From assembly GCA_024276995.1 (NCBI GenBank), contig JAJRWB010000043.1, forward strand, positions 62,001 through 126,000: a DNA stretch of 64,000 nucleotides. The letters are read 5' to 3'. Source of the DNA: Candidatus Eiseniibacteriota bacterium (GTDB lineage Bacteria; Orphanbacterota; Orphanbacteria; Orphanbacterales; Orphanbacteraceae). Both the position numbers and the translations under genes were made by a program. This document shows, piece by piece, positions 19,437 to 45,730 of the stretch. The first letter of the stretch is position 1, and every line of letters starts with the position of its first letter. Below the pieces are notes generated by a model. It saw nothing but the letters and a program-made list of their open reading frames with translations, did not search any database and was not told the DNA's origin.

Positions 19437-20666
19437 TTACCGGAAAAGGCCCTTCACACTCCCCCAGGAGGCCTCCTGCGTGGCGGCGGCGGCTGATTTT
19501 GTGATCGGATCCTCGTCGACTTGGCGTCGGATCGCCCAGCCGCCGGCACCGCCCTCTTTGGGGCGAAGCCAGTATTTCTGGCCGGAAAAGATCACCTTGT
19601 TGACCAGACCGTCCCCGTCAACCCCGTCGTGATACCGAACAAGGATCACCAGGTCGACCTGGGTGTTCGCCAGGTACCATGTTTCTCCATCCGGACGATC
19701 TTCGAATTCAGTCGTGCTCGCCCGTACGCTCTGCACGGTCTGTTTCAGGTCGATGTCGAGCACCTGCTTTCCCTCCGGAGTCTCCCATCCGCTGAACATG
19801 CGATCGGCGATCTTCATCTCTTCCCCACGATCCCAAGTTTCGACGGAAAGGGGGTTGTCGGGATCGGCCGGCAGGTTCTCGAATTCGTATCGCGTATCGA
19901 GGAGTGTTGCGTAGAGAAGACTGTCCTTTCCATTGTAAACCGTCTTGAAATCCTCTTCGAGAAGTTCGGTGATCTGCGAGACGACCCCCTCGTCCTGGGT
20001 ATACCGGAACATCGCCTTGAGCGCTCCCCACTGGGCGTCTTCACTCCACTGCGCGCCCGGGCGCGACCGTGTGATCGGTTCACGGTCCCGCTGTTCGACG
20101 ATCAAGAGATTCCCCTCCCGGGTCGGGTCGGGACGGAGGGTGAAAATCTGCCCCGAGAAGACCACGTGATTCCGGGTTTCACCGCCGTAGCCCGCACTCG
20201 AATCGAGCACCGTGACGATCAGATTGATTTCAGCGTCCACGTCGTACCACGTCTCCCCCGGAGCCGCGCCGTCGTGGTCGCTCGAATCGAGGACCGTCGA
20301 AATCGCCACGATTCTCAGATCGAGTGCCCGGACCCGCTTATTGTCCGGATTCGGCACACCGGAAAACATGTTCTCCGTGCAGGCGAGTTCCTCGTCGGCC
20401 TTCCAGACGTCGTGATGGGATGGCCGTGCCCCGTCGGAGGGAACGAAATGGAATCGGTAATTCTCATCGAGCAACGCTTCGTATTCTTTCAGATCCCGGT
20501 TGTTATAAGCCTTCTCAAGGGCGTCGAAAACCTCCTCCGGCGTCGAAAGAACCGGGTTGTCGTCGCCTTCGCCCAAGCTGTTCGCACCCGTGGGCGAGTC
20601 GTCGTTGCCGCACGAGAGGGAGATCGAGAGGATCGTTATTGCGAGAATGGTGGATCGCTTATACAT
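19437..20666 (-). CDS. lipoprotein with duplicated NTF2-like repeat and SWGxVKxLFR tail
   Basis: 409 residues; ATG at 20666 preceded by GGAG at the right distance (an in-frame ATG 12 bases upstream is less well placed). Signal peptide with lipobox L-S-C near residue 19, so probably a lipoprotein. Two copies of a domain of about 190 residues follow (P-E-E-V-F-D-A-L-E-K-A-Y-N-N-R-D and again in the second half), each with the Y-N-N-R-D / Y-N-G-K-D and E-T-W-Y features of NTF2/SnoaL-like folds. Each repeat ends with W-G-x-[VL]-K-x-[LM]-F-R. The final copy is the extreme C-terminus and is shared with the PPC protein at 44738. Function unknown. Confidence 0.75.
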   Translation of the reverse strand: MYKRSTILAITILSISLSCGNDDSPTGANSLGEGDDNPVLSTPEEVFDALEKAYNNRDLKEYEALLDENYRFHFVPSDGARPSHHDVWKADEELACTENMFSGVPNPDNKRVRALDLRIVAISTVLDSSDHDGAAPGETWYDVDAEINLIVTVLDSSAGYGGETRNHVVFSGQIFTLRPDPTREGNLLIVEQRDREPITRSRPGAQWSEDAQWGALKAMFRYTQDEGVVSQITELLEEDFKTVYNGKDSLLYATLLDTRYEFENLPADPDNPLSVETWDRGEEMKIADRMFSGWETPEGKQVLDIDLKQTVQSVRASTTEFEDRPDGETWYLANTQVDLVILVRYHDGVDGDGLVNKVIFSGQKYWLRPKEGGAGGWAIRRQVDEDPITKSAAAATQEASWGSVKGLFR

Positions 20667-21030
20667 TTTCAACTCCATTGATTGAGACCCGCAGCTTCGA
20701 TCATACCCATAAACCGGTTCATTATCAAGCCCGCGCCCGGCCGCCCTTTTCGTCCTCCCTGCTTCATTCTTCCGGTTGACACGCTGTCCCGCGAACCGTA
20801 TCCTCTTGCCAAACAGAGCGATCGCACGATCGCACAGCTCCGATCGGCTTCACCTAAGGTCTCGCTACGGTGTTGCCGGCGATAGGGTCAGTCGGGAAAC
20901 GGGCTGGCCTCCCGTGTTTGGAAAGGAGCCGGAATCAACGCCACCCCGAGGGGGATCGCGGCCGCGGTGCGGCCGGGGCGTCGTGTCCTTTCCAGGCATG
21001 ACACTCCGGCCGTTCATGTATGGAGTCGGC
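20667..21030 (+). promoter_or_regulatory. intergenic region with moeA promoter and long leader
   Basis: A strong promoter is seen: TTGACA (20776-20781), 17 bases, TATCCT (20799-20804). It leaves a leader of about 220 bases before the moeA ATG. The leader has competing helices: GGTCAG with CTGGCC (about 20887-20912) and AAACGGG with CCCGTGTTT (about 20898-20924). A purine tract GGAAAGGAG follows near 20926. I do not recognise a known riboswitch class. The left part holds the lipoprotein promoter, not identified. Confidence 0.45.
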
Positions 21031-22257
21031 ATGATCTCGTTCCGGGAAGCGTTCGAACAAGTGGTCGCCGCGGCCGCGCCGGTCGGCGTGGAGCGCATCG
21101 CTCTCGATCGCGCCGCCGGCCGTGTTCTCGCGGTGGGCATATCGGCGGACCGCGATCTTCCCCCCTTCGATCGTTCCGAGCGTGACGGCTTCGCCGTCCG
21201 CTCCGCCGATTTTTTCCGTGGCGGGGCGAAGCTCGCGCTCACCGGGGAAACGATCTTCGCAGGCGCCGAGGCGGTGTCCGCCGTGACGAGCGGTTTCTGC
21301 TCCGCCATCATGACCGGCGCGGCCCTGCCGCCCGGCGCCGACGCCGTCGTGCCGGTGGAGAAGAGTGTGAGGAACGGCACCGCCGTCGCCTTGGACTACG
21401 AGAAGATCGTCCCGGGCATTCACGTACACCGAAAGGGATCGGATGCCGCGGAAGGGGACCTCCTTCTCGCCGCCGGAACCGTGCTCGACGGCGCCGCCCT
21501 CTCGGTGGCCGCGTCGGTGGGCGCGTCGGAAGTGGATGTCCATCGGAAGGTGAAAGTGGCGGTTCTCTCCACGGGAGACGAGTTGGTCGGCGTGAACGAA
21601 ACCCCCGGCCGGTTGCAAATCCGCGACGGGAACGGCCCGTCCCTCCGGGCGCTCATCGAATCGATTTCATGGCTCCAATGTGTGATCCACCGGCGGGTGG
21701 TCGACGACGAGACGGTGCTCGGCGCGTCGGTTGTCGAGGCGCTCGCCGAAGCGGATGCCGTGGTGCTCTCCGGCGGCGTTTCGATGGGCGAAAAAGACCT
21801 GGTACCCGGTGTGCTGAAGAGGTGCGGCGTCGAAGAGATCGCTCACAAGGTGGCGATCCGGCCGGGCAAACCGTTCTGGGTCGGCGCGGCGAAGCACCCT
21901 TCGGGTCGCTCCATCATGGTGTACGGCCTGCCGGGAAACCCGGTGGCGGTCCAGGTCACTTTCCGCGAACTGGTGATGGCGGCGCTCCGCCGGATGGCCG
22001 GTCTCGAGACAATCGAGCCGATCGAATTCCGCCTTCCCCTGGCGGAGAACCTCCGGAAGAAGCTCCCCCTCGGGCAATTCCTGCCGGCCCTGCTCGTGCC
22101 GGGAGAGGAGGGGACGTTCGTCCGTCCGGTGACGAACAACGGCTCGGGTGATTTCGTTTCCATCTCCCGCGCCGACGGTGTGATCGTCCTGCCCGAAGGG
22201 GAACTGCGGCTGCGCCCGGGCGATCCCGTCCGATTCCACCTGTGGAGGAACCGATGA
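21031..22257 (+). CDS. moeA: molybdopterin molybdenumtransferase
   Basis: 408 residues, ATG with GGAG; in-frame ATGs at 21016 and 21001 are alternatives. The MoeA order is seen: N-terminal F-R-E-A-F-E-Q, L-P-P-F-D-R-S-E-R-D-G-F-A-V near 50, the A-I-M-T-G-A-A-L-P-P-G-A-D-A-V-V-P-V-E stretch near 95, V-L-S-T-G-D-E-L near 185, S-G-G-V-S-M-G-E-K-D near 250 and G-L-P-G-N-P-V-A near 307. It inserts molybdate into adenylated molybdopterin. First gene of a four-gene Moco operon; its stop overlaps the moaA start as ATGA. Confidence 0.95.
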   Translation: MISFREAFEQVVAAAAPVGVERIALDRAAGRVLAVGISADRDLPPFDRSERDGFAVRSADFFRGGAKLALTGETIFAGAEAVSAVTSGFCSAIMTGAALPPGADAVVPVEKSVRNGTAVALDYEKIVPGIHVHRKGSDAAEGDLLLAAGTVLDGAALSVAASVGASEVDVHRKVKVAVLSTGDELVGVNETPGRLQIRDGNGPSLRALIESISWLQCVIHRRVVDDETVLGASVVEALAEADAVVLSGGVSMGEKDLVPGVLKRCGVEEIAHKVAIRPGKPFWVGAAKHPSGRSIMVYGLPGNPVAVQVTFRELVMAALRRMAGLETIEPIEFRLPLAENLRKKLPLGQFLPALLVPGEEGTFVRPVTNNGSGDFVSISRADGVIVLPEGELRLRPGDPVRFHLWRNR

Positions 22258-23231
22258 TCGCCGACCGTCACGGCCGCGTGGCCGACTCTCTGCGCATCTC
22301 CCTCACCGACCGGTGCGACCTGAGGTGCAGCTACTGCATGCCTTTGACGGGGAACACCTTCGCCCCGTCGGAGGAGGTGCTCACCGATGACGAAATCGTC
22401 GCCGTCGCTTCTTTCCTGGTGCGCCGCACCGGTGTTCGCCGTATTCGTCTCACCGGCGGTGAGCCTCTCCTTCGCGCCGGGCTGGTCGAGCTGGTCGGGA
22501 GGCTCGCCGCCACCGGCGTGGAGGATCTCGCCATGACGACGAACGCCCAGCTCCTCGCCGGGCGCGCACCGGCGTTGAGGGAGGCGGGCCTCACGCGGGT
22601 GAACATCAGCCTCGACACGCTCAAGCCCGACCGTTTCCGCGAACTTGCGCGCACGGGCGAACTGCAACGAACTCTCGACGGGATCGATGCCGCCCTCGAA
22701 GCGGAGCTGACGCCGGTCAAGATCAACACCGTTCTCATTCGAGGCGTGAACGATGACGAGATCGTCGACCTGGTGCGCTACTGCGCCGGTCGGAAGATCG
22801 AGCTGCGCTTTCTCGAATTGATGGCGATCGGCGAGTCCGCCGCGGACCACGACGCGAGATACATGTCGACGACTGAAGCGATCGACCGCCTGTCGGAGCG
22901 GTTCCGTCTCGTCCCCCACGACTTCGTGGCAGGGGAGACGTCGCGCCGATACACTCTATCCAACGGCGACGGCACGAAGCACACCATCGGTCTCATCTCG
23001 CCGGTGAGCGACTCGTTCTGCAGTTCATGCAGGCGGCTCCGGCTCGGCGCCACAGGAATGCTCCGCGGTTGCCTGATGAACTGCGACGGCCCCGATCTCC
23101 GGTCGATTCTTCGAAGCGGCGATCCGGAATGGGAAACGCGGCTCGAGGCGAAAGTATCGGAAGCGTTCCACCAGAAACCGTGGTTGAGCGAAATGACCAC
23201 GGCGGTGACGATGCACCGCTTGGGGGGTTGA
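22254..23231 (+). CDS. moaA: GTP 3',8-cyclase (Moco biosynthesis)
   Basis: 325 residues, start overlapping the moeA stop, GGAGG upstream. Radical SAM cluster C21-x3-C25-x2-C28, then R-L-T-G-G-E-P. The second cluster near 255-275 is F-C-S-S-C-R-R followed 14 residues later by C. The protein ends in G-G, the conserved C-terminal pair needed for the radical step. The arginine-rich R-L-R-L-G stretch fits. It turns GTP into 3',8-cyclo-H2-GTP, which MoaC then converts. Length and motifs are normal. Confidence 0.95.
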   Translation: MIADRHGRVADSLRISLTDRCDLRCSYCMPLTGNTFAPSEEVLTDDEIVAVASFLVRRTGVRRIRLTGGEPLLRAGLVELVGRLAATGVEDLAMTTNAQLLAGRAPALREAGLTRVNISLDTLKPDRFRELARTGELQRTLDGIDAALEAELTPVKINTVLIRGVNDDEIVDLVRYCAGRKIELRFLELMAIGESAADHDARYMSTTEAIDRLSERFRLVPHDFVAGETSRRYTLSNGDGTKHTIGLISPVSDSFCSSCRRLRLGATGMLRGCLMNCDGPDLRSILRSGDPEWETRLEAKVSEAFHQKPWLSEMTTAVTMHRLGG

Positions 23232-23233
23232 AC

Positions 23234-24205
23234 GTGGGAGAAAACGACTTTTCCCATCTGGGGGACGATGGCCGCGCGCGCATGGTCGATGTTTCCGAAA
23301 AGAGCGTTACCGTGCGCTTTGCCCGTGCGGAGGCGCACGTCCATCTCGGCGCGAGTACGGCGGCGCTCCTTGCGAAGGGGGGCGTGACGAAGAAGGGAAA
23401 CGTCCTCGAAACGGCGCGGCTCGCGGGGATCCAGGCGGCGAAGAAGACGGCCGAGCTCGTTCCCCTTTGCCATCCCCTTCTCCTCGATCATATCGACGTG
23501 AACGGCGCCTACGAGGGAGAGGAACTCACCCTCACGAGCGAAGTTCGATGCTCGGGAAGGACGGGCGTCGAAATGGAAGCGATCATCGCCGTCACGGTGG
23601 CGGCGGTCACGGTGTACGACATGTGCAAGTCGGTTTCGAAGGAAATCGAAATCGGCGCGATCCGGCTCCTGAGGAAGACGGGCGGGAAGAGCGGCACATG
23701 GGAACGAGATCATCAGGGGGGGAAGAAGATGGAAAAGGGGGTGCCCACGGTTCTCGCGGTATGCATCTCTCCAGGCGGTGTGCCGAAGAGACCGGTACCC
23801 GAAGCGGCGGTCTGTATGAAGGGGCTCGAGGGAGATGGAAGAGACCACGAGAAGCATTGGAAGCCGGAACGGGCGGTGAGCATCCAGGACGAGGAGCTTC
23901 TCGAGGTCCTCTCGTCGGAAGGATACGACCTCGGTCACGGCACGATGGGCGAGAATCTCACCGTGCGGAATCTCGATGTCCAGTCGATGCCGCCGGGAAC
24001 GAAACTCCTTTTCTCCGGCGGTGTCGAGCTGGAGCTGACCGGGCCGAGGAAGCCTTGTTTCGTCCTCGACAAGATTCATCCGAATTTGAAAGACGACGTG
24101 ATTCTCCGCTGCGGCTGCATGGCGCGCGTGCTTCGCACAGGAACGATCCGTCCGGGCGAGACGATCCGCGTGGAACGCTCGATGGACGACGGCGGCGGCG
24201 TGTGA
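23234..24205 (+). CDS. moaC: MoaC-MOSC fusion protein
   Basis: 323 residues, GTG start two bases after moaA. Residues 1-157 are a complete MoaC (cyclic pyranopterin monophosphate synthase): G-R-A-R-M-V-D-V, K-T-A-E-L-V-P-L-C-H-P at 71-81, E-V-R-C-S-G-R-T-G-V-E-M-E-A and the usual K-T-G-G-K-S-G end. After a linker of about 8 residues, residues 166-323 form a MOSC domain with A-V-S-I-Q-D-E-E, G-E-N-L-T-V and the conserved Cys in G-P-R-K-P-C. The ATG of residue 166 (23729) has a G-rich SD-like stretch, so separate MOSC synthesis is possible. MOSC domains carry sulfur or bind Moco. Confidence 0.9.
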   Translation: MGENDFSHLGDDGRARMVDVSEKSVTVRFARAEAHVHLGASTAALLAKGGVTKKGNVLETARLAGIQAAKKTAELVPLCHPLLLDHIDVNGAYEGEELTLTSEVRCSGRTGVEMEAIIAVTVAAVTVYDMCKSVSKEIEIGAIRLLRKTGGKSGTWERDHQGGKKMEKGVPTVLAVCISPGGVPKRPVPEAAVCMKGLEGDGRDHEKHWKPERAVSIQDEELLEVLSSEGYDLGHGTMGENLTVRNLDVQSMPPGTKLLFSGGVELELTGPRKPCFVLDKIHPNLKDDVILRCGCMARVLRTGTIRPGETIRVERSMDDGGGV

Positions 24206-24804
24206 CGGAGCGCGGCAAGGGCGGCGGCGTCCTCTTTCCAGCAGGAGCGATTCTCATCGGCGGAGGGAGCCGGAGGATGGGTGTGGCGAAGGTGTCGCTT
24301 CCCCTTCCGACCGGCGAGCCGATGGGCGTTCGCATCTGGCGCGTGATCCGTGATCTTTGCGAAACAGTGGTTCTCGTGGGTACGGTGGGCGAGATCCCCG
24401 AGGGGCTGCACCATTTGAAAACGCTCCCCGATCTCCGCTCCGGGCGGCCCGGCCCTCTCGCCGGGTGGGAAGCTCTCCTCTCGTCGGGTGTGGCGAGCGA
24501 CTATCTCGTCGTTCCATGCGATCTTCCGAAGGTGACGGCCGCTCTCCTCTCCCTTCTCGCCGCTCCTCCGCCGGGGCGGGCGGCGGCGCTCAAAGTGCGC
24601 CGCCGTGACCGCGTCGAACCGATGCCCCTTCGTCTTCCCGCGTCGGCGCTCCGTGAAGTGAGCGCCGCCCTCGATCGAGGGGAGCACAAGGCGGGAGATC
24701 TCCTCGCGAGGCTCGACCCGGTGGAGGTGGCGCTTCCCGCCGCGCTCGAGCCGGAATTGTTCAACCTGAATCGTCCGGCCGATCTCGACGATCTTCGAAA
24801 GTGA
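24202..24804 (+). CDS. mobA: molybdenum cofactor guanylyltransferase
   Basis: 200 residues. GTG overlaps the previous stop as GTGA; a strong SD is absent, consistent with coupling. Nucleotidyltransferase motif I-L-I-G-G-G-S-R-R-M-G-V-A-K near residues 17-30, L-P-D-L-R-S-G-R-P-G-P-L-A-G-W near 75, and V-P-C-D-L-P near 103. These match MobA, which attaches GMP to Moco for the DMSO-reductase family. Its presence implies that bis-MGD enzymes are encoded elsewhere. Last gene of the Moco operon; a strong hairpin lies 110 bases downstream. Confidence 0.88.
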   Translation: MTERGKGGGVLFPAGAILIGGGSRRMGVAKVSLPLPTGEPMGVRIWRVIRDLCETVVLVGTVGEIPEGLHHLKTLPDLRSGRPGPLAGWEALLSSGVASDYLVVPCDLPKVTAALLSLLAAPPPGRAAALKVRRRDRVEPMPLRLPASALREVSAALDRGEHKAGDLLARLDPVEVALPAALEPELFNLNRPADLDDLRK

Positions 24805-24913
24805 TCTCCCGGCACTCAACTTCTTTTCTTTCCTGCCGAACCGCTGATCAGCCGAAGGAGTGGAGGAAGAGAGATCCGCGCGCCGGCGTCGCCGGCCGGG
24901 CAGGATCTCCGGA

Positions 24914-24941
24914 GGCGCCTTTCCCGCCCGGGAAGGGCGCC
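24914..24941 (+). terminator. hairpin downstream of the Moco operon
   Basis: Thirteen-base arms GGCGCCTTTCCCG and CGGGAAGGGCGCC with a CC gap; only one position is a G-T wobble. It is followed by TTCACCGTTTG, a poor T-run. Likely transcript end for moeA-mobA, before the kinase gene at 25011. Confidence 0.5.
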
Positions 24942-25010
24942 TTCACCGTTTGATCGCCGGCCCGCCCGTAGTAGAGTGGTCCCATCGCGTTTCCGGGAGG
25001 AGTCCGCGTC

Positions 25011-26048
25011 GTGGTGAGAAAATCGCTGGAAAAACTGTTCGAGCGCACCTTCGGCGGACCGCCGGAGACGGTCGTCCCCTTGCGGGGGGACGGCTCCGAC
25101 AGGCGGCTCTTTCGCCTCACGGGCGGAGACAGGAGGGTGATCGGCGTCGCATGTGGGGATCACGGAGAGAACGCCGCGTTTGTCGGTTTCTCCCGTCATT
25201 TCCGCGCCGTGGGTCTGCCGGTTCCCAAGATCATCGCCCTGTCCGAGGAAGAAGGAATCTACCTCGAAACCGATTTCGGCGACATCACTCTCGCCGACGC
25301 GATCCTGGCGGCGAAGGAGCGCGGCGAATTCCCGGAAGCGGCGATCGATCTTCTCCGAAGCGCCGTCACTTATCTTCCCCGGTTCCAGGTCGAGGGGCAC
25401 AAGGGGCTCGACTACTCTCTTTGCCACCAGTCCGAGCGGTTCGGACCGGACGCCATGGTGAAGGATCTCGATTACTTCAGGCGCTGTTTTCTCGACCTCT
25501 TCTACGACGGACCGCGCGACGACGGCCGGCTCGACGTGGATTTCCGTGTCTTCGCGGAACGTCTCGGCGAGGCGCCGTCCGACTTCTTTCTCTACCGCGA
25601 CTTCCAGCCGCGGAACATGATGGTCGTGGAAGGAGGCCTCCGGTTCATCGACTACCAGGCAGGAAGGCGTGGGGCGCCGCAATACGATCTCGCCGCCTTT
25701 CTCTACGCTTCGAGTTCCTCCCTCGACCGTTCGCTGCGGGATGATCTGACGGCGGTCTATCTCGGAGCGGCGAAGACCCTCGCGCCGATCGACGCCGAGG
25801 TTTTCTTTGAGTACCTTCCCGGCTTCGCGCTGATCCGGATCCTCCAGGCGCTCGGCGCGTACGGCAACCTCGGCGCGAACCGGGGGAAGACCCGTTTCTT
25901 GAGGGCGATTCCCGGCGCCGTCGACCACCTTGGAGAGGTTCTCGGGAATGGAGAGATCCTCGACGGTACGCCCGCGCTGCGTGGTATTCTGATGCGCATG
26001 GCCCGATCCCCCGAGCGCTACGTGAAAGCATCGAATTATGAACGATGA
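25011..26048 (+). CDS. APH-fold sugar kinase, AmgK-like
   Basis: 345 residues, GTG with GGGAGGAG. Kinase-like pattern of the aminoglycoside phosphotransferase fold: G-D-G-S-D-R-R-L-F-R near 28, Y-R-D-F-Q-P-R-N-M near 196 (catalytic Asp, metal-binding Asn) and F-I-D-Y-Q-A-G near 212 (metal Asp, usually D-F-Q). In characterised bacteria AmgK phosphorylates the anomeric position of N-acetylmuramic acid and works with the nucleotidyltransferase MurU. Here a MurU-like gene lies two genes downstream, with a RapZ C-terminal domain gene between, all overlapping. Sugar activation for cell-wall recycling or surface polymers is likely. Confidence 0.8.
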   Translation: MVRKSLEKLFERTFGGPPETVVPLRGDGSDRRLFRLTGGDRRVIGVACGDHGENAAFVGFSRHFRAVGLPVPKIIALSEEEGIYLETDFGDITLADAILAAKERGEFPEAAIDLLRSAVTYLPRFQVEGHKGLDYSLCHQSERFGPDAMVKDLDYFRRCFLDLFYDGPRDDGRLDVDFRVFAERLGEAPSDFFLYRDFQPRNMMVVEGGLRFIDYQAGRRGAPQYDLAAFLYASSSSLDRSLRDDLTAVYLGAAKTLAPIDAEVFFEYLPGFALIRILQALGAYGNLGANRGKTRFLRAIPGAVDHLGEVLGNGEILDGTPALRGILMRMARSPERYVKASNYER

Positions 26049-26445
26049 ATTGACAATACACATATACAGCTTTTCGTATCACACCACGGGGATTCCGCGC
26101 GATACCACCGGTCACGGGGAGGGATTCGTCTTCGACTGCCGTTTTCTCCCGAATCCCGGGAGGGAGGAAAGGTACGTCCGGCTCGACGGGAGGGACGCTC
26201 CCGTGAGGGAGTATCTCCTCTCGCGTCCCGAGGTCGATCTCTTCTGGAGCCATGTGCGCTCGATCGCCGACGGGGCGGCCGCCGCGTTCCGGAAGCGAGG
26301 CTTCACCGACATGACTATTTCCTTCGGCTGCACCGGCGGGCAGCATCGCTCCGTATTCTTCGCGGAGCGCCTGCACGATCATCTCACCGAAGCGGGGTAT
26401 CACTGCCGGCTGAACCACACCGTCGTCGGCGGGCGGGGGCGATGA
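26038..26445 (+). CDS. stand-alone RapZ C-terminal domain protein
   Basis: 135 residues; ATG overlaps the kinase gene end by 11 bases. S-F-G-C-T-G-G-Q-H-R-S-V-F-F-A-E near residues 97-112 is the signature of the RapZ (YvcJ) C-terminal domain; the N-terminal P-loop ATPase half is missing entirely. In RapZ this half binds glucosamine-6-phosphate and RNA. Position between a sugar kinase and a sugar nucleotidyltransferase suggests it senses or handles an amino-sugar phosphate in that pathway. That is inference from domain and context. Confidence 0.85.
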   Translation: MNDELTIHIYSFSYHTTGIPRDTTGHGEGFVFDCRFLPNPGREERYVRLDGRDAPVREYLLSRPEVDLFWSHVRSIADGAAAAFRKRGFTDMTISFGCTGGQHRSVFFAERLHDHLTEAGYHCRLNHTVVGGRGR

Positions 26446-27188
26446 ATCGGCCGGTCGCCGGGATGATCCTCGCCGCCGGGTACGGGAAACGGCTCGGCGT
26501 GCTCACCGCGACGAAGCCCAAGGCCCTCGTCGAAGTGGCGGGACGGACCTTCCTATCTCTCGCCCTCGAGAAACTCCGGCGGGCCGGAGTCTCGCCGGTG
26601 GTGATCAACTCGCATCATATGGCGCCCGATGTCGCTCGCGCGACGCTCGCCGATGCGGGGACGATCGATGTCGCCGTACTCACCGAGGAGATGATCCTCG
26701 GCACAGGCGGGGGTGTGCGCGCCGCGGCGGATCGACTGGGAAAGGATCGAATCGTTCTCGTTCACAACGTCGATGTCCTCTCGGCGCTTTCGATCCGCGA
26801 TTTGATCGAGCGATTCCACCGCGAGCCGTGCGACGCGATGCTCGCCGTCGAGGAGCGGCCGACGAAAAGGCCTCTCGCGATGGACGCGGCCCGGTTCATT
26901 GTCGGTCGCTCGGGGGACGACGAAGTGCGCGAGCCACGGGGGGATGTGACGCCCGTCGGTTTCAGCGGTATTCAGATCCTCGCGCCCGGCACGGCCGGCG
27001 CACTCGACGGAGACCCGCCCTTCTCGATCATCGACGCCCTTCTTCGTCTTGCGCGCCGGGGCGCCACGCTCAGGGCGTATCCGATGGAAGGGTGCTACTG
27101 GGCCGACCTGGGCACGCCGGAACGCCTCGCGCGGGCGCGGCGCGACATCGAAACGGGCATCGTCCCCCTCGAAGCGCTTCTTTCGTGA
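26442..27188 (+). CDS. sugar-1-phosphate nucleotidyltransferase, MurU-like
   Basis: 248 residues, start overlapping the RapZ-C stop as ATGA. I-L-A-A-G-Y-G-K-R-L-G-V-L-T near 9-22 followed by K-P-K-A-L-V-E-V is the NTP-binding signature. H-N-V-D-V-L-S is the metal site near 108, and W-A-D-L-G-T-P-E near 222 is typical of MurU/RmlA-like enzymes. It should use the sugar 1-phosphate made by the upstream kinase to give a UDP-, CDP- or other NDP-sugar. Exact base and sugar are not readable. It ends 4 bases from a convergent methyltransferase gene. Confidence 0.85.
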   Translation: MNRPVAGMILAAGYGKRLGVLTATKPKALVEVAGRTFLSLALEKLRRAGVSPVVINSHHMAPDVARATLADAGTIDVAVLTEEMILGTGGGVRAAADRLGKDRIVLVHNVDVLSALSIRDLIERFHREPCDAMLAVEERPTKRPLAMDAARFIVGRSGDDEVREPRGDVTPVGFSGIQILAPGTAGALDGDPPFSIIDALLRLARRGATLRAYPMEGCYWADLGTPERLARARRDIETGIVPLEALLS

Positions 27189-27192
27189 CCGC

Positions 27193-27987: not shown

Positions 27988-28099
27988 GGATGGAGCCCCT
28001 GTTGCCCGGCGGGCGCTGGTTCGAATTGCGGGGAACCGGTCGTCACGGCGCGGAGCTTCCCCTCGTTCCGCGCGACGGGAAGGATAGCACAACCGCCGA

Positions 28100-34120: not shown

Positions 34121-34130
34121 AGCGGGCCGG

Positions 34131-37747: not shown

Positions 37748-37772
37748 AATCGATTCTGGAAGGGCGTTCCCC

Positions 37773-38420
37773 TCAGTCCATATCGAAGTAGACGGTCATG
37801 GTGGCCATCACGGTGCCGAAGGGACCGATGTTCCAGCCGCTTCCCTCCACCGAGGAGGTGCCGCTCCCCTGGAAATCGTCCTCGGTCTTGTTCTTCGAGT
37901 AACCGAATCCGAAGGTGTAGTCGCCGCCGAGAGAGACGGTCTCGCGGATGAAGTACTCGAAACCGAGCATGGCGGCCGCTCCGAACAAGAGGCTGGACGT
38001 CTTCTCCTCGAGGAGAGTTCCGTCGGAAGGATTCGACGATACCGACTTCGTATCCTTGTTCCGGGTCCAGCCGAAGTTCACCATGCCTCCGAGATAAGGA
38101 GTCACCCGGTCGGTGGTGGCCATGTTCTTCTGGATCCCCACGCCGGCGACGAGCGTCGTAACCGACTGCTCCGGATCCGAATTGCCGCTCACCGAGGCGT
38201 CCTGGGTGGTGTTGTTGTGGCCCAGGCCGGCGCGGATGAGGAGATACTTGTCGGGCCCCATGGCGTTCTTCAGGCCGATCGAGCCTCCCCGGATCGGGGT
38301 GACACCCAAGTTATCCAGTCCGTTGAAGGTGAAGGTCATCCCCATGTCGTTGGCGCCGAACACGGCAGCCGGGCCGACGAGGAAAGTGCAGAACAGAATC
38401 GCCAATACAGCCTTCTTCAT
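37773..38420 (-). CDS. small outer-membrane beta-barrel protein
   Basis: 215 residues; ATG with GGGAGGG. Signal peptide residues 1-22 (cleavage before A-N-D). The mature part alternates short amphipathic strands with polar loops (R-G-G-S-I-G-L-K, Y-L-L-I-R-A-G-L-G, T-T-L-V-A-G-V-G-I, L-G-F-E-Y-F-I-R, T-V-S-L-G-G-D-Y-T-F-G-F) and ends M-A-T-M-T-V-Y-F-D-M-D. Strands at start and end fit an 8-stranded OmpA/OmpW-like barrel. Fold is inferred from strand pattern; function unknown. Has its own TTGACA promoter and terminator, so monocistronic. Confidence 0.75.
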   Translation of the reverse strand: MKKAVLAILFCTFLVGPAAVFGANDMGMTFTFNGLDNLGVTPIRGGSIGLKNAMGPDKYLLIRAGLGHNNTTQDASVSGNSDPEQSVTTLVAGVGIQKNMATTDRVTPYLGGMVNFGWTRNKDTKSVSSNPSDGTLLEEKTSSLLFGAAAMLGFEYFIRETVSLGGDYTFGFGYSKNKTEDDFQGSGTSSVEGSGWNIGPFGTVMATMTVYFDMD

Positions 38421-38744
38421 GATGGTCCCTCCCATGGTTGAAGGCGTTTCGTCGTTGTACCGTCGCTCCTTCCCCCGGGGGAAATGGCGGCGGTGCTTTT
38501 CTTCTTCCGGAAGAATCCGCGACCCCGGCGGTCCGGATACGTCTCCCGGGAGGCGCCTGATTCGAGGCCGCCGAAAGGTAACTTTCTCACCGTTGAGTGT
38601 CAAGAAAAAAGAAAAGCCTGTAATGGCGTGAAATACAACGGGTTACAGAAGAATAAACCTTCCCGGGAGCGGGCGGGCCTTTTCTCTTCCTCTTGCGCCG
38701 TGTTCATCTTGCGGCTGTCGCGACGGGGCGGTACGCTCAGGTTC
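38421..38744. promoter_or_regulatory. divergent region with beta-barrel promoter
   Basis: On the minus strand TTGACA (38603-38598) with a 17-base spacer and TACCTT (38580-38575) makes a plausible promoter for the beta-barrel gene. This gives a 5' leader of about 150 bases. The AT-rich stretch 38600-38660 probably also holds the sulfatase promoter, not resolved. No gene or recognised RNA is seen. Confidence 0.45.
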
Positions 38745-40085
38745 ATGTGCCGACCGGTATTTTTCAGGGGAATCGCAGCGGCCCTCGTCGCAATCGCCTG
38801 CGGGTGCGGTGGTGGAGAGCGCGCCGGCGCGCCGCTCAATCTGCTGTTGATCACGGTCGACACGTTGCGCCCCGACCGGCTCGGGTGCTACGGGAACGAG
38901 CGGGCGCGAACGCCGTCGATCGATGCCCTTGCCGCGAGGGGGGCGACGGTGGCGACCGCCGCCACGTCGATCCCCGCCACGATCCCGAGCCTCTCGTCGC
39001 TTCACTCGTCCGCGCCCCCGTCGGAACGAGGACTCTTTGGGAACAGGGATATCCTCCCGCCCGACGCGGTCACCCTGGCGGAAGCACTCCGCGACGCGGG
39101 GTATGCCACCGAGGCGATCGTTTATGGCATCCCTTCCCAGGGGCGGGGTCTCGAACAGGGATTCCTCCGCTACAACGGCGCGCCGCCGGGGGAGGGGACA
39201 CTCCCTTCGGTCGGTTTCGGCGACGCCTCGGAAGTGGCGGAGCGGTTCGCGAAATGGGCGACCGATCCACCGGAAGAGCCCTTCTTCCTCTGGGTCCACT
39301 TCTGGGACCCCCACCAGGACTACACCCCGCCGGAGCGATTCGCCGCCCTCTACGGCAGCCGCCGGGAAGGTTACTCCACCATGACGCAGTTCAGCGACAT
39401 CTTCCATGGTGCCGCCGACCTGTCGCCCGAGGAGCTGGCGAACAGCCTCGGCCTGTACGACGGAGAGATCGCGTATGTCGACGAGAAGGTGGGGGAGATT
39501 CTCGCCGCCATCGACGGGAGCGGCCTTGCCGGGCGGACGGTGACGGCGTTCTCCGCCGACCATGGCGAGGATTTCCATGAGCACCACCGCTACGTCGGCC
39601 ACGGCCGCTTCTTCTATGAGAGCGCCCTGCGCATCCCGATGATGATCGCCGGTCCGAACGTCGATCCGGGAAGCGTCGTCGGGGGGACGGTGCGGATCAT
39701 CGACCTCGCACCGACGCTGCTCCGCCTTCTCGACGTCGAGCGACCGGCGGCGTTTCGCGGGAGGAGCTTCGCCGGAAGTCTCGCCGGTGGGGTGGTCCGG
39801 TCGCCGGGGCCCGTATTCTCCCTCCTCGAGGACGGTTCGATGATGGTCCGTTCCGGCTCGTGGAAGCTCGCTGTTCACCGGCAGACATCGACGGTGGAGC
39901 TGTACGACATCGACGCCGATCCGGGCGAAAGGGTGAATCTCGAGGCGGTGGAGGATTCCACGGAGAAGGCGCTCGAGGGAAAGCTCCGGAAGTGGGCCCT
40001 CACCTTCGCCGACAAGGCGGCCGCGCCCCGAAAGCTTCCCAAGCCGTTCGAGGAGCGTCTGCGCGCCCTCGGTTACATCGACTAG
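38745..40085 (+). CDS. sulfatase/alkaline phosphatase superfamily lipoprotein
   Basis: 446 residues from the ATG at 38745; no strong SD. A hydrophobic start ending A-I-A-C-G-C-G-G-G suggests a lipoprotein. Superfamily metal motifs: I-T-V-D-T-L-R-P-D-R-L-G-C-Y-G near 34-48 and S-A-D-H-G-E-D-F near 268. The usual sulfatase C/S-x-P-x-R nucleophile is absent; the equivalent place reads A-T-I-P-S-L-S-S near 80, so a Thr/Ser nucleophile without formylglycine is likely. This points to a phospho- or sulfo-hydrolase or transferase other than classical sulfatases. It ends R-A-L-G-Y-I-D as many relatives do. Confidence 0.85.
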   Translation: MCRPVFFRGIAAALVAIACGCGGGERAGAPLNLLLITVDTLRPDRLGCYGNERARTPSIDALAARGATVATAATSIPATIPSLSSLHSSAPPSERGLFGNRDILPPDAVTLAEALRDAGYATEAIVYGIPSQGRGLEQGFLRYNGAPPGEGTLPSVGFGDASEVAERFAKWATDPPEEPFFLWVHFWDPHQDYTPPERFAALYGSRREGYSTMTQFSDIFHGAADLSPEELANSLGLYDGEIAYVDEKVGEILAAIDGSGLAGRTVTAFSADHGEDFHEHHRYVGHGRFFYESALRIPMMIAGPNVDPGSVVGGTVRIIDLAPTLLRLLDVERPAAFRGRSFAGSLAGGVVRSPGPVFSLLEDGSMMVRSGSWKLAVHRQTSTVELYDIDADPGERVNLEAVEDSTEKALEGKLRKWALTFADKAAAPRKLPKPFEERLRALGYID

Positions 40086-40167
40086 GCCGTCTCCTCCCCA
40101 GCAGGCGGCGCGGCGCCCCCCGCCGCTGCTCAACTCGCCCCCGATTCCCGCTGATCCTAGGGGAGAA

Positions 40168-42116
40168 ATGCTGTTTGTTCCGATGGAGGCGAATGTCTTG
40201 AAGGGGGCCCTGTTCAGCACGGAGAAGAACAACTACACGCTCTACGGGGCGCTTTTCGGGCTGCTCTTTCTGGTTGTCGCCACGGTCTTCGATGCCCGCT
40301 TCCGCTGGGGACACGTCTCCCCGTCGATGCTGGCGACGGCGCAGCTCGCCGACCCGCTCCTGTGGATCATCGATACGGCGCCTTTCTTCCTCGGCTTCTT
40401 CGCGCGCATCGGCGGCATCCGGCAGGATCGGCTGCACGAGGCGCTCGACGGGCGGGACGACGTGATTCGCCGCCAGACGGAAGACCTGAGAGAGGCGCTC
40501 GCCGGGGCGGAAGAGGCGAACCGCGCGAAGAGCACTTTCCTCGCCAGCATGAGCCACTCATTCGCACGCCGATGAACGGCATTATCGGGATGAACGATCT
40601 TCTCCTCGAGACCGAGTTGACGGCGGAGCAGGAGGAGTACGCCGACGCGGTTCGGAGCAGCGGTGAGGCGCTTCTAGCATTGATCAACGACATACTCGAT
40701 TTTTCCAAGATCGAGGCGGGAAAACTCGAAATCGAGAGCGTCGACTTCGAACTGGTCGACCTGGTGGAGGAAACGGTGGCGCTCCTGGCGCACAAGGTGT
40801 CGGGGTGCGATCTCGAGCTGCTCGTCGAGGTCGATCCCGCCGTTCCCCGGTACGTGCGCGGCGATCCGACGCGACTTCGCCAGGTGTTGACGAACCTGAT
40901 CGGGAACGCGCTGAAGTTCACCGAAAAAGGGGAGATCCACGTGACGGCGGAGCTTCTGTCGCGTGGGGAGGGCGAAGAGGGGAGCGCCGTCCGTTTCGCC
41001 GTCAGGGATACCGGGATCGGCATCCCGCCCGAGGCGCAGAAGAAGCTGTTCATAAAGTTCAGCCAGGCCGATTCGTCGACCACCCGGAAGTACGGCGGCA
41101 CCGGGCTCGGCCTCGCCATCTGCCGGCAGCTCGCCCGGTTGATGGGGGGGGACGTGGAAGTCGAAAGCACGGCGGGGGAAGGATCGACGTTTTCCTTCAC
41201 TCTCCCGCTTCGCGAAGCGGAGTCGACCCCCTCGTCGCAGAGGATCGCCGCGCCTCCGGCGGCGTGCTTCCAGGATCTGCTGGTCTTCGTCATCGACGAC
41301 AACCGGACGAACAGGACGATCCTCCGGAAAGGTCTCGAGGGGGTGGGGTGCGATGTGGAGACCGCCGCCGGCGGGGAAGCGGGTCTCGCGGCGATCCGTC
41401 GCCGGCTTGATTCGACCCGACCGTTCCGGTTCGTCCTTCTCGACATGATGATGCCGGAAATGGACGGCATGGAGACGGCCCGCGTGATCCAGAGAGAGCG
41501 GTTCGATCCGTCACCGGTAATCATCATGATCTCGAGCATCGGAAACCGCCCGGCGCGCGCGGAAATCGAGGAGGCGGGGATCGCGAAGTGGATCGCGAAG
41601 CCGGTGCGCCGGAAGATGCTCCTCGCCGAACTCGGCCGATGGATGGGAGCGTCCGGTCGCCCCTGCTCCGGCGTCGACGTGCGGCCTCTTCTCGAGAAGA
41701 TCGGATGGCGCCGGGAGAGTCCGCCGCGCATTCTCGTCGCGGAGGACAACCCGGTGAACCGGAAGCTCGCCGAGCGGCTCCTCGCGAAACTCGGCCTTGA
41801 CGCGAAGGTGGTCGACGACGGCGCCGAGGCGGTGGACGCGTGTCGCGCCGGCGAATACGATTGCATCCTGATGGATGTGCAGATGCCCCGCATGGACGGT
41901 CTCGAGGCGACCGGTCTCATCCGTCGGGAAGAAGTGGGAAGGGAAGGGCACGTACCGATCATCGCCCTCACGGCGAACGCGATGAAGGGGGACCGGGAAC
42001 GGTTTCTCGCGGCCGGGATGGACGACTACGTGGCGAAACCGATCCGGAGGGGCGAGATAGTGCGGGCACTCGAAAACGTGCTTTCGAAAACGAACCGGGC
42101 CGCCAGGACTGTCTGA
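40168..42116 (+). pseudogene. hybrid histidine kinase, frameshifted at the H-box
   Basis: Two frames together make one kinase. From 40168: membrane segments near residues 24-42 and 60-85, coiled coil, then [10 protein letters not shown] followed by a wrong-frame S-F-A-R-R and stop. From 40559 on, in the next frame: [12 protein letters not shown], HisKA, HATPase (N-A-L-K-F, D-T-G-I-G-I, G-T-G-L-G-L-A) and two receiver domains ([15 protein letters not shown]; then [17 protein letters not shown]). One base is missing right after the phospho-acceptor His codon (CAC, 40555-40557): TC stands where a codon is expected. Either a real mutation or an assembly error; the rest is intact. Confidence 0.85.
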
Positions 42117-42153
42117 GCCGATCGTCGTCCGTTCCGGGTGCGTTCCCGTGCGG

Positions 42154-43614
42154 CTACGCCGTTGCGCGACCCTCTTCACTCCGCCCCGTCGTCATCAGGC
42201 TCACCGCAACGGTGAATACGAGAGAAAAGACGAACGTGGCGAACTTCAGGTCGATCGCGTCGTTCAACGCGCCGACATTGTTCCAGATGATGTTGGAGAT
42301 CGTGCCGGCGAGCATCCCGGCGAGTGCTCCGGAACGGGTGATCCGTTTCCACCGGAGCGACAGGAGAAGGGGTGGTCCGAAGGAGGAGCCGAGGCCCGCC
42401 CAGGCGTACGCCACCATGTCGTAGATCATCTCCTTGCTCGAGAAGGCGAGGACGAGCGCCACCAGGGCGACGCCGAGGGTGGCGAGGCGGCTGACGAGGA
42501 GGATCTTCTTTCCGTCCGTCTTCTCCTTTCCGAGAATGCGGACGTAGAAATCCTCCACCACCGCCGACGTGGCGACGAGGAGCTGCGAGTCGGCGGTCGA
42601 CATCATCGCCGCCACGGCGCCGGCGATGAAGATCCCCGCGAGCCAGCCGGGGAGGAGGAACTTCGCCACCAAGGGCATCACCATTTCAGGGTCGGCGAGG
42701 TCGGGGCCGAGGAGGCCGACGCCGACCATGCCGACGAGGGGCGCCGACCAGTACGCCACGAGCACCCAGCCGATCGCAACGCCCGCCCCCGTCTTCAGCT
42801 GGCGCACCCCTTTCGCCGCCATGTACCGGGTGAGCAGGTGCGGCTGGCCGAGATAGCCGAATCCCCACGAGAGCGAACCGATCATCACGCCGAAGAGGAA
42901 CGCCGCGCCCGTTTTTCCGCCCGAGAGGGTGAGCATCTCGGGGGCGCGAGCGGCGAGCGATTCGACGAACGCCGCCGGCCCGCCGAGGTGGAGGATGCCG
43001 ACCACCGGGAGGATCACCGCCACCGCCGCCATGAGCAGTCCCTGGAGGACGTCGGTCCACACCACGGCGAGGAGCCCGCCCATGAGGGTGTACGACGTGA
43101 CCACAAGCGCCCCGAGAATCAGCCCCCAGCCGTTACTCAGCCCGAAGGTGGCGGTGAGTATTTTCGCGCCGCCGACGAACTGGGCGGCCACGTAGGCGGT
43201 GTAAAAGAAGAGGATGATCACCATCGACACGGAGCGGAGGATCCTCGCGTGATCGCCGAAGCGCATCTCGAAATAGTCGGGGATCGTGAGGGCGCCGAGC
43301 TTCTCGGTGAGCCTGCGCAAAGGGATCGCGATGAGAATCCACGAGGTGAAGATGCCTGCGGCACTCCCGATGACCGTCCAGTACTCGGTGAAGCCGGCGG
43401 CGTACGCCGCCCCGGGAAGGCCGAGGAGGAACCAGGCGCTCTCCCCGGAGGCGCGTTCGCTGATCGCCGTGGCCACCGCGCCGAGACGGCACCCGGCGAG
43501 GAGGAAGTCGTCGAGCCGGCGCATCATCCGGCTCGCCCAGATGCCGAGGAAAAGGACGATCACCAGGTAGCCGAGAAGGCCGAAGAGGAGGGAGGTGTCG
43601 AGGCCGCCGCTCAC
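42154..43614 (-). CDS. sodium:solute symporter (SSS/PutP family)
   Basis: 486 residues; GTG overlapping the stop of the 31-residue gene upstream (GTGA). Thirteen or so membrane segments. The family pattern is visible as S-E-R-A-S-G-E-S-A-W-F-L-L-G-L-P-G near 52, Y-T-A-Y-V-A-A-Q-F near 138 and S-T-A-D-S-Q-L-L-V-A-T-S near 345, which holds the Na+ site residues. G-L-G-S-S-F-G-P late in the protein also fits PutP-like symporters. The substrate (proline, pantothenate or another solute) cannot be read from sequence. Tight coupling to the mini-protein suggests a two-component transporter. Confidence 0.92.
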   Translation of the reverse strand: MSGGLDTSLLFGLLGYLVIVLFLGIWASRMMRRLDDFLLAGCRLGAVATAISERASGESAWFLLGLPGAAYAAGFTEYWTVIGSAAGIFTSWILIAIPLRRLTEKLGALTIPDYFEMRFGDHARILRSVSMVIILFFYTAYVAAQFVGGAKILTATFGLSNGWGLILGALVVTSYTLMGGLLAVVWTDVLQGLLMAAVAVILPVVGILHLGGPAAFVESLAARAPEMLTLSGGKTGAAFLFGVMIGSLSWGFGYLGQPHLLTRYMAAKGVRQLKTGAGVAIGWVLVAYWSAPLVGMVGVGLLGPDLADPEMVMPLVAKFLLPGWLAGIFIAGAVAAMMSTADSQLLVATSAVVEDFYVRILGKEKTDGKKILLVSRLATLGVALVALVLAFSSKEMIYDMVAYAWAGLGSSFGPPLLLSLRWKRITRSGALAGMLAGTISNIIWNNVGALNDAIDLKFATFVFSLVFTVAVSLMTTGRSEEGRATA

Positions 43615-43706
43615 TCGTCGTCTCCCCCACGGACGATATACGCCACGGTGAGGGCGAAGAGAATGAGCCACGCGCCGACGACGACGATCAACGTGGAATA
43701 CGGCAA
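43611..43706 (-). CDS. 31-residue single-span symporter accessory protein
   Basis: A mini-gene: TTG at 43706 with GGGAGGAG five bases upstream, 31 codons and TGA overlapping the symporter GTG. The product is one membrane helix (residues 5-25, L-I-V-V-V-G-A-W-L-I-L-F-A-L) with a charged tail R-G-G-D-D-E. Very small membrane proteins are known partners of SSS and NSS symporters. Start, SD and overlap all support translation. Role in assembly or regulation of the symporter is inferred. Confidence 0.7.
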   Translation of the reverse strand: MPYSTLIVVVGAWLILFALTVAYIVRGGDDE

Positions 43707-43789
43707 GACGACTCCTCCCTTCGGGGGGATCGTATGCAGCGCGAGGGGGCGTGTCAACTCGGGAGGAGGGGGCGCGAGCCGGCGTCGTG

Positions 43790-44275
43790 CTAACGAGGCC
43801 GGTCTTCCGATGTGCGCCCCGAAGCGTTCTCCCTGCGGACCGATTGCACCACGTTGTCGAGCTGTTCGAGAAAGCGTGACCGGTCCCGTTTTCCGAGGGG
43901 CGGCGGGCCGCCCCTCACCTCGCCCGCCTCGCGCAGGTCGGCCATCAGGTCGCGCGTCGCCACGGCGTCGCCGATGTTCTCTTCGGTGAAGAGGCGGCCC
44001 GTGGGACCGAGCACACGGGCGCCCTCTTTCAGGCACCGGCTCGCCAGGGGGACGTCGGAGGTGATCACGATGTCGCCGGCGCCGGCGAGCTCGACGATCC
44101 GGTCGTCCGCCTCGTCGAAGCCGGCGCCCACCACGTCGAGGGTGATCCGCCGATCGGGCGGCACGCGCATCCACGAATTGGCCACCACGGTGACGGCGAG
44201 ATCGTATCGCGCGGCGACACGGTAGACCTCCTGCTTGACCGGGCAGGCGTCCGCGTCGATGAAGATATGAAGCAT
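43790..44275 (-). CDS. DUF188 / YaiI-YqxD family protein
   Basis: 161 residues; ATG with GAGGG. F-I-D-A-D-A-C-P-V-K near residues 5-14, then V-V-A-N-S at 30, D-x-x-I-V then V-I-T-S-D-V-P-L-A near 70 and G-P-T-G-R-L-F-T-E-E-N-I near 90 are the complete DUF188 pattern. The family resembles PIN-type nucleases through its conserved acidic residues, but no activity is established. Single gene. Confidence 0.92.
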   Translation of the reverse strand: MLHIFIDADACPVKQEVYRVAARYDLAVTVVANSWMRVPPDRRITLDVVGAGFDEADDRIVELAGAGDIVITSDVPLASRCLKEGARVLGPTGRLFTEENIGDAVATRDLMADLREAGEVRGGPPPLGKRDRSRFLEQLDNVVQSVRRENASGRTSEDRPR

Positions 44276-44737
44276 GGCAAGCCCTCATGTCTGCGCGAGA
44301 TCTTCGAGGATCATGCTGATCCGTGATCACGAGAGACGCCGAATTCATCCGGCTCCTCGATTCTACCGCCTCGGATGCTGCAAAGGGAGAGTTCTCCGCC
44401 CATTTCCTTGAAGGTCGGCAAGGGCATTCGCTCTCCCGGTCCGATTCTCCCGGTGAGCAATGTTTACCCGGGCTTGCTGCGGCGCGACGGGTTTCTTCCC
44501 GTCGTGCAAAATAAGTAACCCTATAATTGGTAATTGACTTGATCCTACTTGGTCGATGTGCTAACATAATTCCCGGTCGATTGTGAAACGCCGGTTCTAA
44601 ATGCGTCCGGCGCACGTCATTGCCCGGTTTTCTTCTCGAAGCAGTCCCGAAGGTGCCAGTTCTCCGGCCGGTGCTCCGTTGGAGGACTTTCTTCCCGGGA
44701 ATATCGGGTAGGTATTCAATTGGAAGGAGGCGCCAGC
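44276..44737 (+). promoter_or_regulatory. 462-base non-coding region with hairpin and PPC-gene promoter
   Basis: Contains no convincing gene. A strong hairpin, GCGCGACGGG / CCCGTCGTGC with a six-base loop (44482-44507), is followed by A-rich sequence, so it is not an ordinary terminator on the plus strand. A perfect TATAAT (44522-44527) follows without a clear -35. A better-spaced promoter is TTGATC (44539-44544), 17 bases, TAACAT (44562-44567). This leaves a leader of about 165 bases before the TTG at 44738. No known riboswitch is recognised. Confidence 0.4.
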
Positions 44738-45730
44738 TTGAAACACTGCTATCGTATCGGAATCGCGGTGCTCGTCGCGGCCATGATGGTCGTGCTCGCC
44801 GTTCCGGCGCTCGCCGCCGGGATCGAGAAGAAGGATCTACACAATCAGCCCGGGACTTCCCCCTCCGTCGGTCTCCTCGACTGCACCGGCGCGGCCGAGC
44901 TTTTCTGCGGTGGTACGGCTCTCGCGGGCGACAACACCGGCCACGCGAACAACGTGGTGAACTACGGCTGTTCGGGGTTGAATGAGAACGGCGGCGAGGA
45001 TGTGTATTACTTCACCCTCGCGTCGGAAAGCCAGGTCACGATCACACTGACTCCCGATGCCGCCGATCTCGATCTGTGGCTTCTCGGCTCGTGTGACGAG
45101 GCAGCCTGTCTCACCTATTCCGCGGGCGTCAGCACCGAGACGATCACCGAATGTCTCCCCGCGGGAACATACTATGTCGTTGTCGACGGCTACGGCAGCA
45201 CGTACCCGGGCGCAGAAGGCTCGTATACGATCGCCCTCGAGTGCGCCAGCTGTCCTTCGGCACCCGACCCGGTCCAGGGCGGTGAGACATGCGCGGACGC
45301 GGTCAGCCTCGGCGATTGGCTGCACGGCAATGCGTTCAACATCGCGTACGACTGCACCGGCTTCACTAACGACTATGACGAAGACTACAACTGCGGCCAG
45401 TATGGATCTTCCGGTGAGGACATGGTCTACTCGGTCTGCCTCCAGCCGGGAGGAACGATCGACATCACCCAGACGGGCGATACCGACATGGTTCTCTGGA
45501 TGGTGGAGGATTGCGGGAACCTGACGACGTGCGTCGCCAGCTCGGACAACTGCTGCACCGGCGCGGACGAGCATTTCACGTATACCAGCGTCGCCGGCGG
45601 CACGTACTTCATCATCGTGGATGGTTACACGCTAGGTCCGGTCGGCACGATTTCGGGTACGATCGACGGCTTCTGTACCACGCCGACCGGGACCGAATCC
45701 TGGGGTGGGGTGAAAGAACTGTTCCGGTAA
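44738..45730 (+). CDS. secreted PPC-domain protein with SWGxVKxLFR tail
   Basis: 330 residues; TTG with AAGGAGG seven bases upstream. Signal peptide to about residue 27 (A-L-A-A). Two bacterial pre-peptidase C-terminal (PPC)-like beta-sandwich units follow: D-V-Y-Y-F-T-L... D-L-D-L-W-L-L-G-S-C near 90-125 with Y-Y-V-V-V-D-G-Y-G, and D-M-V-Y-S-V-C-L... D-M-V-L-W-M near 225-260 with Y-F-I-I-V-D-G-Y. Many paired cysteines suggest disulfides outside the cytoplasm. No protease domain is attached. The end E-S-W-G-G-V-K-E-L-F-R is shared with the lipoprotein at 19437. Confidence 0.8.
   Translation: MKHCYRIGIAVLVAAMMVVLAVPALAAGIEKKDLHNQPGTSPSVGLLDCTGAAELFCGGTALAGDNTGHANNVVNYGCSGLNENGGEDVYYFTLASESQVTITLTPDAADLDLWLLGSCDEAACLTYSAGVSTETITECLPAGTYYVVVDGYGSTYPGAEGSYTIALECASCPSAPDPVQGGETCADAVSLGDWLHGNAFNIAYDCTGFTNDYDEDYNCGQYGSSGEDMVYSVCLQPGGTIDITQTGDTDMVLWMVEDCGNLTTCVASSDNCCTGADEHFTYTSVAGGTYFIIVDGYTLGPVGTISGTIDGFCTTPTGTESWGGVKELFR

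Follow-up and report, generated by a model that had tools for sequence, protein, structure and literature searches.

Which proteins are displayed on a bacterial surface is decided by C-terminal tags and by the proteases that belong to them, and the LPXTG motif, PEP-CTERM, and the type IX domains have each opened a field. In the LPXTG/sortase system, the tag is served by a dedicated transpeptidase, and the PEP-CTERM-type tags have a tripartite build of motif, transmembrane helix, and basic residues. The subject here is a short tail of the form SWGxVKxLFR, shared by two exported proteins encoded in a 64,000-nucleotide stretch (the window) of an assembly of Candidatus Eiseniibacteriota bacterium (GCA_024276995.1, contig JAJRWB010000043.1, positions 62,001 to 126,000). 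On balance, we read this tail as a detachable C-terminal sorting tag that is processed by a sortase-like peptidase of family C25, designated clade W, of which the window also encodes a copy.

The signals of the type IX secretion system (T9SS) in Prevotella intermedia are reported to measure 40-51 residues in the short form and 69-82 in the long form (PMC11969387), types A and B in Flavobacterium are described as each having shuttle proteins of their own (PMC12618676), and the sortase PorU is reported to cleave off the type IX domains and to link the protein chain to a lipopolysaccharide (PMC8545088, PMC4560394). Like the tail, the type IX C-terminal domains (type A, TIGR04183/PF18962/FlgD_ig, and type B) are found at the C-terminus of Sec-exported proteins of the Fibrobacteres-Chlorobi-Bacteroidetes (FCB) superphylum, and clade W has the C25 family, the propeptide, and the FlgD-Ig end in common with PorU. 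The tail differs in that it spans only about 16 residues, is helical in models, and forms no beta-sandwich domain; Pfam detected neither FlgD_ig nor Por_Secre_tail in any of 109 tailed proteins. PEP-CTERM/exosortase, MYXO-CTERM/myxosortase, and GlyGly-CTERM/rhombosortase likewise join a short C-terminal tag on unrelated exported proteins to one protease family. In contrast to these, the present tail has no transmembrane segment or Arg cluster after the motif, and its partner is a C25 peptidase instead of an intramembrane enzyme. Relative to LPXTG/sortase, there is no LPXTG and no membrane anchor, and the envelope is of the Gram-negative type. The tail would represent a variation on the tag-plus-sortase principle, to be kept apart from the type IX, PEP-CTERM-type, and LPXTG families. 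The open-access PMC literature yielded no description of a tail of this kind, and neither NCBIfam nor Pfam returned a known domain or sorting family at the tail. PEP_CTERM_FxDxF was considered for one of the two proteins and rejected, the match being weak (16.3 of 50 bits) with the tail lying outside it.

The features that bear on the tail in the window are as follows.

19437..20678, minus strand: exported lipoprotein with two NTF2/DUF4440-like repeats and the tail at its C-terminus (open reading frame, repeat alignment)
19440..19487, minus strand: final 16 residues of the lipoprotein, its C-terminal tag AATQEASWGSVKGLFR (end of the reading frame, logo of 106 tails)
20004..20033, minus strand: internal copy QWGALKAMFR, which closes the first repeat (homologue conservation, structure model)
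44720..45730, plus strand: exported PPC-domain protein with the tail at its C-terminus (open reading frame, Pfam)
45680..45727, plus strand: final 16 residues of the PPC protein, its C-terminal tag TPTGTESWGGVKELFR (end of the reading frame, logo)

The shared ends reported in the preliminary description were recovered from both open reading frames (ORFs), the lipoprotein terminating in ..EASWGSVKGLFR and the PPC protein in ..TESWGGVKELFR, each directly before the stop codon; the internal copy in the lipoprotein was likewise confirmed. The PPC label is borne out by a Pfam match to PF04151 (1.9e-08), the protein being the one for which PEP_CTERM_FxDxF was rejected, and the lipoprotein gave only a sub-threshold match to DUF4440 (0.063). 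The latter carries the lipobox ..SLSC/GN, with the start possibly at 20666. Its two halves are 33% identical across 172 residues with the motif inside the alignment, from which the internal motif is read as a copy that arose by domain duplication.

The tail was searched for as a DNA pattern encoding W-G-x-[hydrophobic]-K-x-[hydrophobic]-[FY]-[RKQ..] followed by a stop codon. The window contained three matches, compared with an average of 0.00 over 100 shuffles, and the source genome (3.76 Mb) contained 22 matches against none for the reversed pattern. When the stop codon was left out of the pattern, the count rose to 24: the internal lipoprotein copy was now included, as was a protein whose chain runs one residue beyond the motif (..SWGGIKKLYRR before the stop). 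The motif therefore sits exactly at the stop in 22 of the 24 cases and does not occur mainly within domains, although the one lipoprotein family with an internal copy departs from a purely terminal position. When up to two mismatches were allowed, 34 matches were obtained against 14 in the control, so that only the exact pattern separates cleanly from its control. Tail counts in seven Eisenbacteria genomes were 10, 32, 26, 22, 42, 34, and 25, with every control at 0, including a frame control in which the pattern was shifted by one base (0 matches in 7/7 genomes). The motif is coded by differing codons, which marks it as a signal at the level of the protein; chance and a DNA repeat were excluded on the strength of the reversed-pattern controls and this codon diversity. 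One of the 22 matches (L020) has an in-frame stop ahead of the tail and is read as a broken gene.

The stretches around tagged genes from eight genomes provided the sample for the export, cluster, and logo analyses. The logo was built from 107 signal-peptide proteins, of which one was dropped for two basic end residues to leave 106; tailed ORFs that lacked a predicted signal were excluded both from it and from the Pfam scan of 109 proteins. It revealed that the full signal extends over about 16 residues and reads T-A-T-E-x-x-[ST]-W-[GS]-x-[VI]-K-x-[LM]-[FY]-R-COOH, made up of an N-terminal part (T-16 in 66 of the 106, A-15 in 45, T-14 in 65, E-13 in 81, S/T-10 in 98), a core (W-9, G-8 in 93 with S in 11 and T in 2, V/I-6 in 94, K-5), and an end (L-3 in 71, F/Y-2, R-1 in 104). 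Positions -16, -14, -13, and -10 are conserved though they lie outside the selection pattern. The chain terminates one residue past F/Y, with no transmembrane helix or basic residues following the motif. Variants in which the Gly is replaced by Ser or Thr are exported too, and in one Krumholzibacteria protein adjoining clade W (L304), Phe takes the place of the Trp.

A Sec-type or lipoprotein signal peptide was predicted heuristically for 94 of 111 complete tailed ORFs versus 184 of 522 others (Fisher p 3e-22), the background consisting of ORFs of at least 150 residues with many exported neighbours among them. On clustering by sequence, 52 clusters contained a tailed protein, of which 33 consist of one protein only, and 16 Pfam families were found among the 109, including beta-helix, X25, LTD, cupredoxin, CHRD, C-type lectin, CBM20, PPC, and pectate lyase. 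This breadth, together with the reversed controls at 0, stands against the proposal that the tails were inherited within homologous domains or arose by chance, which we regard as extremely unlikely, the observation in its favour being the NTF2-like lipoprotein family that has the motif at the end of each domain and hence also internally. A C-terminal degradation or quality-control tag for an envelope protease would equally be short, exactly C-terminal, and present on many unrelated exported carriers. The carriers are however numerous and well-formed, with lipoproteins among them, for which a constitutive degron would be odd, and the T-A-T-E extension and clade W would be left without account, making this explanation very unlikely. 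Separately, five tandem tail matches on small exported proteins were noted at G004:C21:223729-226221 (L236); those that were read belong to one family (..VELDLDG.GNGPD..), and the array is apparently a recent expansion.

A scan of one genome per species yielded at least 115 stretches with tail matches. Five were dropped for lack of a real stop (L093, L122, L139, L140, and L172), and three look like chance (L098, L179, and L181); G016, G023, G030, and G032 were taken, on equal size and counts, as copies of G002, G001, G004, and G006 and counted once, G050-G054 were set aside as chance, and G019, with one tail, was left outside the comparison with clade W. Two populations emerged among the matches listed, namely tail-rich genomes with unrelated carriers (Eisenbacteria, Krumholzibacteria, and further phyla) and genomes in which a single conserved FN3-like protein bears the tail (Ignavibacteria, Kapaibacteria, Hymenobacter, KSB1, Calditrichota, and others). 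The number of tails was accordingly bimodal across 48 genomes, at 10-69 versus 1 with a few at 3. Among 395 Bacteroidota genomes, DNA-level counting gave a match in 140 (exactly one in 138 and two in 2), the reversed control totalling 5. The tail is hence not specific to the lineage of the window, as the preliminary description had supposed, being many-copy in Eisenbacteria, Krumholzibacteria, and other phyla and single-copy in Bacteroidota and their relatives. Tagged genes were also seen in metagenome-assembled genomes (MAGs) labelled Planctomycetota, Verrucomicrobia, Reyranella, and Patescibacteria (L071, L096, L120, and L145). In the Verrucomicrobia-labelled G022, 13 tails were counted alongside a clade W gene, for which reason its label or binning is doubtful.

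The FN3-like protein comprises about 135 residues and ends in ..RTWGSIKAMFR, with the W, G, K, F, and R of the tail invariant in 28 of 28 aligned sequences (alignment A1). AlphaFold2 modelled the domain with a predicted local distance difference test (pLDDT) score above 90, the linker at about 63, and the tail helix at about 65-73, the tail forming an eight-residue helix (124-131) behind the low-confidence linker. A fold search with this model gave four matches at E <= 0.001, mostly FN3-like and other beta-sandwich domains. Attempts to find a partner through the neighbours of the FN3 gene were abandoned, given that Maf, SpoIID, YbhN-like, and other genes recur within groups and none across all; nor did an enzyme emerge from the recurrent neighbours of tagged genes in general.

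A candidate for the processing enzyme envisaged in the preliminary description was found instead in peptidase C25, which was matched in 29 of 31 genomes and 0 of 14 control genomes, with two of three C25 matches covered in each of G015, G025, and G034. The window carries one such gene, 3.7 kb from the PPC protein.

49268..53263, minus strand: clade W peptidase C25, a PorU paralogue, with propeptide and catalytic domain, the true start being uncertain (tree, profiles)
48440..49267, minus strand: C-terminal part of the clade W gene with an FlgD-Ig-like end, in the same frame behind a TAG codon (W profile)

The Pfam C25 match spans 49370-50671, the frame is ended by an in-frame TAG at 49268-49270, and the part behind it scored 302.6 bits with the W profile versus 97.9 with the PorU profile. 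In a tree of 78 C25 domains, the window copy falls within a clade of 19 (Shimodaira-Hasegawa-like approximate likelihood ratio test, SH-aLRT, 100), and 19/19 of its rows come from tail-rich genomes; the PorU clade of the same tree holds rows from tail-rich and single-tail genomes alike. Profiles built for the W and PorU clades separate the C25 proteins seen with no overlap, and the held-out members (G001, G006, G022, G031, and the window) score with the W profile. Clade W was thereby found in 18 of 19 genomes with at least 10 tails versus 0 of 21 single-tail FN3 genomes. PorU was considered as the partner of the tail and rejected, as it is present in single-tail genomes too and is not near the tags.

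Clade W proteins scored 245 and 194 bits on PF01364 (C25), and H1002 and C1046, which we take to be the catalytic His-Cys pair, are invariant in 15/15 rows. Four of them remained far below the cut-off of 420 on the PorU model NF033707 (258, 198, 158, and 190 bits) and below that of 450 on NF052324 (103, 97, 100, and 64 bits), the model for PorU2, a putative alternative type IX sortase, with which clade W shares the notion that T9SS genomes may hold another PorU-like sortase. No paper joining "PorU2" with "type IX" was found in the open-access PMC literature. In-frame TAG codons, all of them lying in CTAG, were seen in the clade W gene of the window, just ahead of the tail in the tagged gene L020 (G000:C77), and at G000:C79:1904-1933, where TAG occupies the Lys position of a tail-like sequence. 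CTAG stands at 0.30-0.35 of expectation in the source genome, where tagged genes otherwise commonly end in TAG. These codons may reflect broken genes, assembly error, or recoding, and intact relatives exist.

Could the tail be a minimal type IX signal of an ordinary T9SS (SprA, PorV, and PorU), in which clade W would be a further protease of that system? SprA_N was matched in 26 of 31 genomes, all seven Eisenbacteria included, and in none of the 14 control genomes; a true PorU (545 bits against the cut-off of 420) adjoins PorV (185 bits) in the source genome at G000:C25:28000-46000 (L309), from which type IX machinery is read to be present in Eisenbacteria; and a loose regular expression picked up type A-like ends in these loci, on 19 of their 628 untailed ORFs. 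Against it, the known signals are far longer, even in the "short" class of Prevotella intermedia, more than two tails occur in 0 of 395 Bacteroidota genomes, and SprA_N had no match in the tail-rich G022 and G031. These two are fragmentary assemblies, their clade W genes being cut by contig ends; G009 gave no SprA_N match either. Overall, this explanation appears improbable. No PorV was seen by eye beside clade W in the loci viewed, no family scan of all neighbours having been made.

The sole exception among the 19 tail-rich genomes is G010, which has the most tails (69) and no clade W, and which offers a test in that its relatives should carry W if W matters. Of 12 other genomes from its phylum, ten have a near full-length W (714-950 bits) and two have fragments at contig ends; the W profile exceeded the PorU-clade profile in 12/12, and the ten joined W in a second tree (SH-aLRT 99). 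Same-strand tagged genes, one to four per locus and 23 in all, lie upstream of W in 8 of 11 loci read from this phylum, with a multihaem cytochrome gene between them in most loci. Small exported proteins ending in ..DFGKFAAHFGH or similar, presumably dockerin-like from their look, were noted among the tagged genes upstream of W (L414, L416, L417, L418, and L420). In Eisenbacteria, W belongs to a conserved block with a GH3 enzyme and a SpoIID-type lipoprotein, the tagged genes being about 6-9 kb away. SpoIID-type lipoprotein and GH3 (NagZ-like) genes adjoin W in both Eisenbacteria and Krumholzibacteria (L293, L294, L296, L298, and L303), and the gene that comes after the FN3-tail gene in some Ignavibacteria is likewise of SpoIID type (L103). 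A link to peptidoglycan is possible, and the SpoIID family common to the W and FN3 loci may be a thread to an older role of the tail.

In favour of W, a tag was present within 12 kb of 8 of 12 W genes outside the phylum of G010 (1.56 expected) and of 1 of 12 PorU genes (1.43 expected). That this cut-off was set after the distances had been seen is one of several points that weigh against a tag processed by W. The Eisenbacteria rows represent one inherited synteny block, no tag falls within 12 kb of W in G035 (which has three W genes) or G027, and tagged and C25 proteins, both being envelope proteins, could cluster from that alone. The 12 relatives of G010 enter the comparison by phylum rather than by tail number, and the tail-rich genomes may be one lineage, so that the co-occurrence may stem from few independent events. 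No W-level match was obtained in G009, G029, G036, G041, and G046, which have one to three tails on other proteins, and some of which may be mis-binned MAGs. Some tagged proteins are lipoproteins and thus anchored already, and the FN3 protein keeps its tail in 21 genomes in which no clade W was found, which means that another reader must be able to act. Last of all, the W, K, and F of the internal lipoprotein copy are kept in homologues. The motif ends both tandem domains, and the model places a strand plus helix at the internal and the terminal motif alike; in this two-domain family the motif is therefore, judging from the sequences, not purely terminal and may be part of the fold.

Several of these observations would suit an uncleaved docking or anchoring helix, whose face of W, V/I, L, and F binds a conserved FCB envelope receptor that is also used by the FN3 protein, with clade W as a fellow traveller or a client. 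The single-copy, conserved FN3-tail protein in genomes without clade W, the amphipathic helix of the model, the lipoproteins among the carriers, and the motif retained internally in duplicated lipoproteins all speak for it. It gives no account, however, of why W tracks the tail number or of why W follows same-strand tagged arrays, and we consider it unlikely, if still worthy of fair consideration.

For the detachable tag read by clade W, a mechanism is proposed by analogy with PorU. The Sec signal peptide would take the tagged proteins out of the cytoplasm, and the tag, which probably forms a short amphipathic helix preceded by a flexible linker, would be recognised by clade W, either within the periplasm or at the outer membrane. 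Clade W would likely cut at or before the tag, and the transfer of the proteins to an anchor would leave them fixed at their surface destination; the SprA type IX translocon, which is present in the source genome, may serve as the route across the outer membrane. The suggestion in the preliminary description of a sorting, processing, or anchoring signal is thus upheld as regards the C-terminal position, the exported carriers, and a candidate enzyme, whereas processing or sorting as such is deduced from genomics. More tentatively, and at rather less than even confidence, this may be an undescribed pathway of the FCB superphylum, in which the tag was first carried by the FN3 protein and spread to dozens of cargos once W had become a dedicated sortase, the two sortases working side by side, PorU serving the classical type IX domains and W the short tag.

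Tag and clade W together point to a protein-sorting system not described so far. If true, a tag-and-sortase pair would be predicted for uncultured phyla, dozens of hypothetical proteins could be called surface proteins by sequence alone, the PorU family would be split into sortases with different tags, and a short portable tag would be at hand. Through the FN3 protein, the question extends to Bacteroidota that can be cultured, Hymenobacter among them.

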